Origin: Methanomethylovorans hollandica DSM 15978
Lineage (GTDB): Archaea > Halobacteriota > Methanosarcinia > Methanosarcinales > Methanosarcinaceae
Length of the DNA: 64,000 bases
Assembly: GCF_000328665.1 (NCBI RefSeq)
Contig: NC_019977.1
Span: 372,001 to 436,000 of the forward strand
Direction of reading: 5' to 3'
Within the stretch, counting starts at the first letter, position 1; every line of letters starts with the position of its first letter. A program made the translations under genes and the position numbers. This document shows positions 58,630 through 59,897 of the stretch, piece after piece. Below the pieces are notes generated by a model. That model searched no databases and had not been told where the DNA came from. It saw only the letters and a list, made by a program, of their open reading frames with translations.

Positions 58630-59679
58630 TCAGAATGTTTTAAAATCGATATTCAGTTCTCCATTTTGTTGCCAAAGGAACAATGGGAATTTTCTCTTTT
58701 CCTGTATGTTCTTCTCATACAGTGCATGGACTACAATGGGTAGTGCAATGGTTGCATCCACGAATACCTGAACTTTCTTTGCATCAGCAGCTATCTTACC
58801 CCAGGAAACAGCTTCATCGAACGTGCATCCTGAAAGGCCACCCTAGTGAGGTACATCTGTGGTATACTGTATGGCATAATCATGTCCGGCAATATTCGCA
58901 CCCATTATGGAAGCCACAACTTCCGTCTGTTGTATGAAGTTCTTGGGAACTCCTCCGCCTACATAAACGACCCCGGTCTTTCCAGACATCTCCACTATGC
59001 GGGTTATTTCATCCACATCTTTTATCTGGTCCACATCAACATCAAACCCTGCCCTTCTTGCAATGGTCAATCCTATCCCTATGGAACTATCGCCAAGAGC
59101 TGGCACAAAAATGGGAACACCATATTTATACGCGCTGCCTACGATGGATTCATCGCCATTTCCATCTTCGTATATTTTCTTTCCAAGGAGGCCTATGAAT
59201 TCTCTTGAGGACATTCTCTTCCCATGAAGTCCTCTGGCAAAATCTGCTATCAAATGATCTGTATTTCTGAACTCTTCCTCAAAAGCGAAAACATCGTATA
59301 TTCTGTCCACTCCATGCCTGAACAGTTCTTCATCGTTGGCCAGGTGAGAGCCAACATAATGTTTCTTTCCAATAGCTTCATGGCAATCATGGAACAGGTT
59401 CGCTCCCGTGCTCACAAGACAGTCTATCATCCTGTTCTTTATTAGATGTACTATCACTTTCCTCATGCCTGCAGGTACCATAGCACCTGTAAGCCCCATC
59501 ATTATAGTAAGTTCTTCTTCTTTGAGCATATTGTTCCAGGCTTGCACTGACTCGGCAAGTTTCCTGCCCTGGAATCCAGTATATAGCATGCTGTCTACTA
59601 GCTGGCCTATAGATCTGTTCGTGACATCTAAAGGTCTTGTTGGGTTCTGAGTGAAAACATTGATCTTATGTGACTCCAT
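58630..59679 (-). CDS. dys: Deoxyhypusine synthase with in-frame amber codon (possible pyrrolysine)
   Basis: Residues 1-278 show a typical synthase: VSTGANLFHD, FIGLLGKKIY, YVGGGVPKNFIQQ and AIQYTTDVPH. A TAG (58843-58845) then stands where the family has Trp in PHWGGLSG. The same frame continues without break for 70 codons, GGLSGCTFDEAVSWGKIAAD onward, to TGA at 58630. The Lys in SWGKI is the catalytic lysine of the family, so stopping at TAG would give a dead enzyme. Full length would be 349 residues. Methanosarcinales can read UAG as pyrrolysine. ATG 59679 is preceded by GAGGTG. The enzyme modifies aIF5A lysine using spermidine. Confidence 0.85.
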
Positions 59680-59897
59680 CCTGGCACCTCTCAATGGTAG
59701 AATCATGAAACTCTGAAATGTTACATACTGCTACATTTAATTATCAGTTGGTGTTCAGAGAGACATATCTTTTGGAAAATATATCATGTGCACCATTGTA
59801 ATTAAGCATGACCTTTGAGGTAATTCTACAGTTCTTTATCCTATTCTTTTGCAGACCGATACATATATCCAATTCTGTTACCAATCAGTCAGTTATC

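Follow-up and report, generated by a model that had tools for sequence, protein, structure and literature searches.

The analysed window, 64,000 nucleotides of Methanomethylovorans hollandica DSM 15978 (C2:372001-436000, in a genome of 2 contigs and 2,714,013 bases), carries on its minus strand a gene of the deoxyhypusine synthase (DHS) family at 58630..59679, with 349 codons followed by a TGA stop. It belongs to the subfamily NF002006/PRK00805, called type A, with 546.6 bits against a cut-off of 434, and it matches the Pfam DS domain (PF01916) with 341.5 bits. Read on the minus strand (59679 to 58630), its frame has a single internal stop, a TAG at codon 279 (58843..58845), and the original prediction of a TAG breaking an otherwise intact synthase frame at these positions was right in both coordinates and description; the PF01916 match crosses this codon, extending from residue 35 to residue 328 of the longer-start translation, in which the TAG is residue 288. 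As for the start, the one at 59679 is conserved in the relatives, while the alternative upstream start of the open reading frame 58843-59706 is less so. If UAG terminates, the product corresponds to codons 1-278 (58846..59679, minus strand); if it is read through, the protein has 349 aa, with UAG encoding residue 279.

The 70 codons 3' of the TAG, 280-349 (58633..58842, minus strand), are coding and constrained, with a dN/dS of 0.081 relative to the nearest congener, compared with 0.05 before the TAG, in agreement with the earlier claim that this part shows no decay. They include GGLSGCTFDEAVSWGKI, whose catalytic-type Lys is codon 295 (58795..58797, minus strand), 16 codons beyond the TAG. 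Counting residues on the alignment with human DHS, Lys295 pairs with the catalytic Lys329 and residue 279 with Asp313; the gene has both the DS domain and the catalytic Lys motif, the Lys being reached only with UAG readthrough and missing from a product that ends at the TAG. The in-frame UAG is located within the conserved domain and the frame is intact beyond it. The best PDB match is 7cmc (E = 9e-35); compared with archaeal and human deoxyhypusine synthases (PF01916; PDB 7cmc, 1rlz), type A is of the same family and keeps the SWGK motif and the catalytic-type Lys, whereas human Asp313 is aligned with Trp or Phe in type A, and with UAG here. Finally, the downstream neighbour is an ArsR-type regulator (PF09824; 57970..58479, minus strand) that is retained in the relatives and is given for context only.

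The original prediction had pointed to a second synthase gene as the finding that would speak against an indispensable role, and such a gene exists: an uninterrupted DHS-family gene of 316 aa is located at C2:792835-793680, beside an orotidine-phosphate-decarboxylase-like gene. The two genes are about 38% identical and fall into different NCBIfam subfamilies, NF002006 ("type A", 547 bits, cut-off 434) for the TAG gene and NF002630 ("type B", 514 bits, cut-off 364) for the intact one; both types occur far outside the genus. Among the 238 genomes of the class, some DHS-family gene is present in every one that is at least 90% complete, and type A exceeds its cut-off in 114; within the same family, the sole DHS-family gene of many 99%-complete genomes is not type A. 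Type A is therefore dispensable in the relatives, being neither the sole nor a universally kept DHS of the lineage, and it is not the indispensable enzyme, because NF002006 is missing from many 99%-complete genomes. Internal stops in some type B matches were set aside: where coordinates were checked, they were natural ends, lying beyond the open frame. As a separate observation, two genera of the same family, g7 and g10 (G098-G107 and G112-G119), have a single DHS-family gene that shares only about 30% identity with type A and scores well under the type B genes of the relatives; it is perhaps a third DHS type that replaces both.

Regarding the activity of type A, its neighbourhood points to agmatine. 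In 27 of the 80 named loci (27 of L074-L153, including L078, L091, L131, L133, L140-L142, L144 and L147), type A has a gene for a pyruvoyl-dependent arginine decarboxylase (PF01862) close by and in the same orientation, upstream of it in 26 and just downstream in one; the two genes often abut or overlap, with a gap of -4 to 1 base in Archaeoglobales and of -40 in two deep euryarchaeal records. A PLP-type decarboxylase (PF02784 domain) is encoded close to type A in seven more loci, which belong to ANME-2 archaea and to relatives of Methanothrix. In M. hollandica, the pyruvoyl-dependent enzyme is encoded at C2:1350919 and is not adjacent to type A. This linkage suggests agmatine as the substrate, and type A would probably be an agmatine-using side enzyme and not the housekeeping deoxyhypusine synthase, so that an archaeal DHS subfamily annotated plainly as deoxyhypusine synthase may have an agmatine-based role. 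In Thermus, a DHS-family enzyme couples two agmatines (PMC10981699). Type A shares with this T. thermophilus protein, CdmS, the family, a Leu replacing human Asp316 and, through the arginine decarboxylase link, a source of agmatine; however, it scores 295.7 bits with the NCBIfam caldomycin synthase model (type B, 215 bits), under the cut-off of 500, and the Leu at the Asp316 site also occurs in archaeal DHS.

The aIF5A gene is intact, with the lysine of the PGK loop present, and it precedes by 51 bases an agmatinase-like gene in the same orientation; the pair is at L162:11995-13298, plus strand. In Haloferax, the surroundings of aIF5A are similar and include genes for DHS and for an agmatinase-like protein (PMC5178350). 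The pairing found here hints at an agmatine-based hypusine chemistry in methanogens.

As for the age of the TAG, the four congeners that carry type A all read TGG at codon 279, and no other type A gene listed over the cut-off has an internal stop. The TAG is thus not shared by relatives, which the original prediction had left to be checked, and the codon comparison marks it as recent and lineage-specific. A manual count over 80 named relatives found Trp (67) and Phe (13) as the sole residues at site 279; the predicted Trp in relatives holds for the orthologues and has to be widened to Trp or Phe beyond them. Judged from this count, the site is a constrained aromatic position close to the active-site motif, so a change from Trp to Pyl is not obviously harmless. 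Over the entire gene, dN is 0.019 and dS 0.31 with respect to the nearest congener, and the ratio of 0.063 indicates that selection on type A was strong until recently; by estimate, the gene would have been free of constraint for roughly the final tenth of its branch at most. The present values would fit a recent TAG as well as a type A product that is still in use.

UAG can be a sense codon in this genome, because it has both the pyl genes and methyltransferase genes with in-frame TAG. The pylTSBCD cluster is present and intact, with pylS at C2:22.5 kb, pylB, pylC and pylD (read from the sequence by the analyst) lined up behind it and tRNA-Pyl alongside; together with the TGG of the congeners and a stop unique among the listed type A genes, this upholds the proposal that TGG became TAG in a methanogen able to encode Pyl. 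Over the 1.6 Mb scanned of the 2.7 Mb genome, tRNA-Pyl is the only tRNA with a CUA anticodon, and five methyltransferase genes (two mtmB, two mtbB and one mttB) have a TAG inside the family domain. TAG is plainly also a terminator: within C2:1-1600000, it ends 133 of 1354 open reading frames of at least 100 aa, about 9-10% with interrupted genes counted in, a share that was dropped as proof of recoding and that implies competition between termination and readthrough. In the same 1.6 Mb, no enrichment of in-frame backstop codons was found near TAG-terminated genes, and a search for a PYLIS-like RNA structure after the type A UAG gave no signal (z = +0.86, versus -1.20 for mtmB). Reviews of Pyl decoding are consistent with readthrough without special signals (PMC2933860; PMC9499178), and for M. 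acetivorans there are documented cases of amber codons, introduced or acquired, being read through (PMC2933860). Decoding of the type A UAG as pyrrolysine is thus possible on these genomic grounds.

The behaviour of TAG was compared with that of the other stops in a survey of the 1.6 Mb, in which stops with a coding-like open frame behind them were collected and the joined pieces scanned with Pfam; the scan covered nearly all candidates of the first 0.8 Mb and, from the second 0.8 Mb, the ones with a distant restart codon. Methyltransferases aside, two domains continue in frame across a stop, both across TAG, and among the candidates tested none was found across TAA or TGA. One is type A, and the other is an SLFN/AlbA_2 domain gene of 504 codons (C2:308137-309645, minus strand), with an in-frame TAG at codon 101 (~C2:309.3 kb) where a congener (G005) has TGG and an uninterrupted frame of 504 aa. 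A third candidate, a gltS-type symporter gene (C2:105.3-106.7 kb, L159:5270-6700, plus strand), was rejected as a further case of tolerated UAG because its alignment to the intact copy of another congener (G004) shows several frame breaks besides the internal TAG; it is a pseudogene. By stop type, intact-frame interruptions amount to 2/128 for TAG and 0/1221 for the others (Fisher test, p = 0.009); the result is treated as weak, because the null is generous and, if the three stops are taken as equally likely products of nonsense mutation, two TAG out of two has p ~0.11 by the analyst's arithmetic. The contrast between TAG and TAA/TGA would weakly fit UAG tolerance, the numbers being small.

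The explanation that we favour, with somewhat better than even confidence, is that a recent TGG-to-TAG mutation struck a dispensable DHS paralogue and is tolerated thanks to a backup enzyme and to probable, partial readthrough with pyrrolysine. A G-to-A transition would have turned TGG into TAG in this non-essential gene of a Pyl-encoding methanogen; with charged tRNA-Pyl, part of the ribosomes would read UAG as pyrrolysine and yield the full-length protein of 349 aa with Pyl-279, and the remaining ones would halt at 278 aa, leaving a fragment devoid of the catalytic lysine. Tolerance of the mutation would follow from a dispensable type A and an intact type B, with aIF5A modified without need of the former. 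From the sequence we infer the UAG readthrough, any residual type A activity and the agmatine substrate, while it is doubtful that the Pyl-279 enzyme functions, because the aromatic residue is invariant and Pyl may inactivate the protein. It is improbable that the enzyme works with Pyl at this site, with an agmatine- or polyamine-linked reaction that would track the Pyl supply, that is, growth on methylamines.

The main rival, which has a substantial but clearly smaller probability than tolerance with partial readthrough, is an incipient pseudogene, in which the TAG has killed the enzyme, either by termination or through an inactive Pyl protein, and decay has not yet begun. The invariant Trp/Phe of the relatives, the repeated absence of type A among them and the available backup DHS all suit it, and the same genome does contain a true pseudogene with TAG and frame breaks, gltS. 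The lack of a second lesion and the low dN/dS after the TAG speak on the other side; the latter is a weak point, because a recent lesion would look identical. An error of base calling or assembly, with TGG as the true codon, is unlikely: a single base departs from all congeners in the one sequence of the species that was used, yet the assembly consists of two contigs and is 99.99% complete, and the second frame-intact gene with TGG changed to TAG, with no TAA or TGA counterparts, argues against it because random errors would yield all three stops.

Two further readings are very unlikely. According to the original prediction, hypusine formation, and hence translation, would depend on the pyrrolysine supply; a TAG ahead of the catalytic Lys in a DHS-family gene and the presence of the pyl genes speak for such a switch. 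However, the TAG gene is probably not an essential synthase, a reading dropped in view of the second intact DHS and of the patchy distribution of type A; with an intact type B of another subfamily, hypusine formation need not depend on the TAG codon, type A is missing from many complete relatives, and it is linked to arginine decarboxylase and not to aIF5A, which here adjoins the agmatinase-like gene. The TAG does not, then, make hypusine or translation dependent on pyrrolysine, and this part of the prediction does not stand. The other reading, to which we give just as little credence, is that the UAG is decoded by a different suppressor tRNA, which brings in Trp or some other standard amino acid; this would keep the conserved aromatic residue; against it, the sole tRNA with a CUA anticodon in the 1.6 of 2.7 Mb scanned is tRNA-Pyl.

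Compared with the known systems, type A resembles MtmB, MtbB and MttB in having an in-frame UAG in the same genome; in these methyltransferases the UAG is conserved and catalytic, whereas in type A it appears as a private mutation. By analogy, the closest known case is the amber codon of M. acetivorans Thg1, the tRNA-His guanylyltransferase (Heinemann et al. 2009, as described in PMC2933860). As far as that description goes, both are non-methyltransferase genes of a Pyl-encoding methanogen, with a TAG in one species and a sense codon in the relatives; for Thg1, Pyl was physically observed and was not required for activity (PMC2933860), whereas the type A site is invariantly Trp or Phe in the relatives.

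The type A gene is a clean example of a sense codon that recently turned into UAG where the meaning of UAG is ambiguous. UAG reportedly encodes Pyl widely across the proteomes of some Pyl-using archaea, according to recent work, which would make the present case less new. With its invariant site and its backup enzyme, the gene could serve to gauge the extent to which nonsense mutations are buffered by Pyl decoding.
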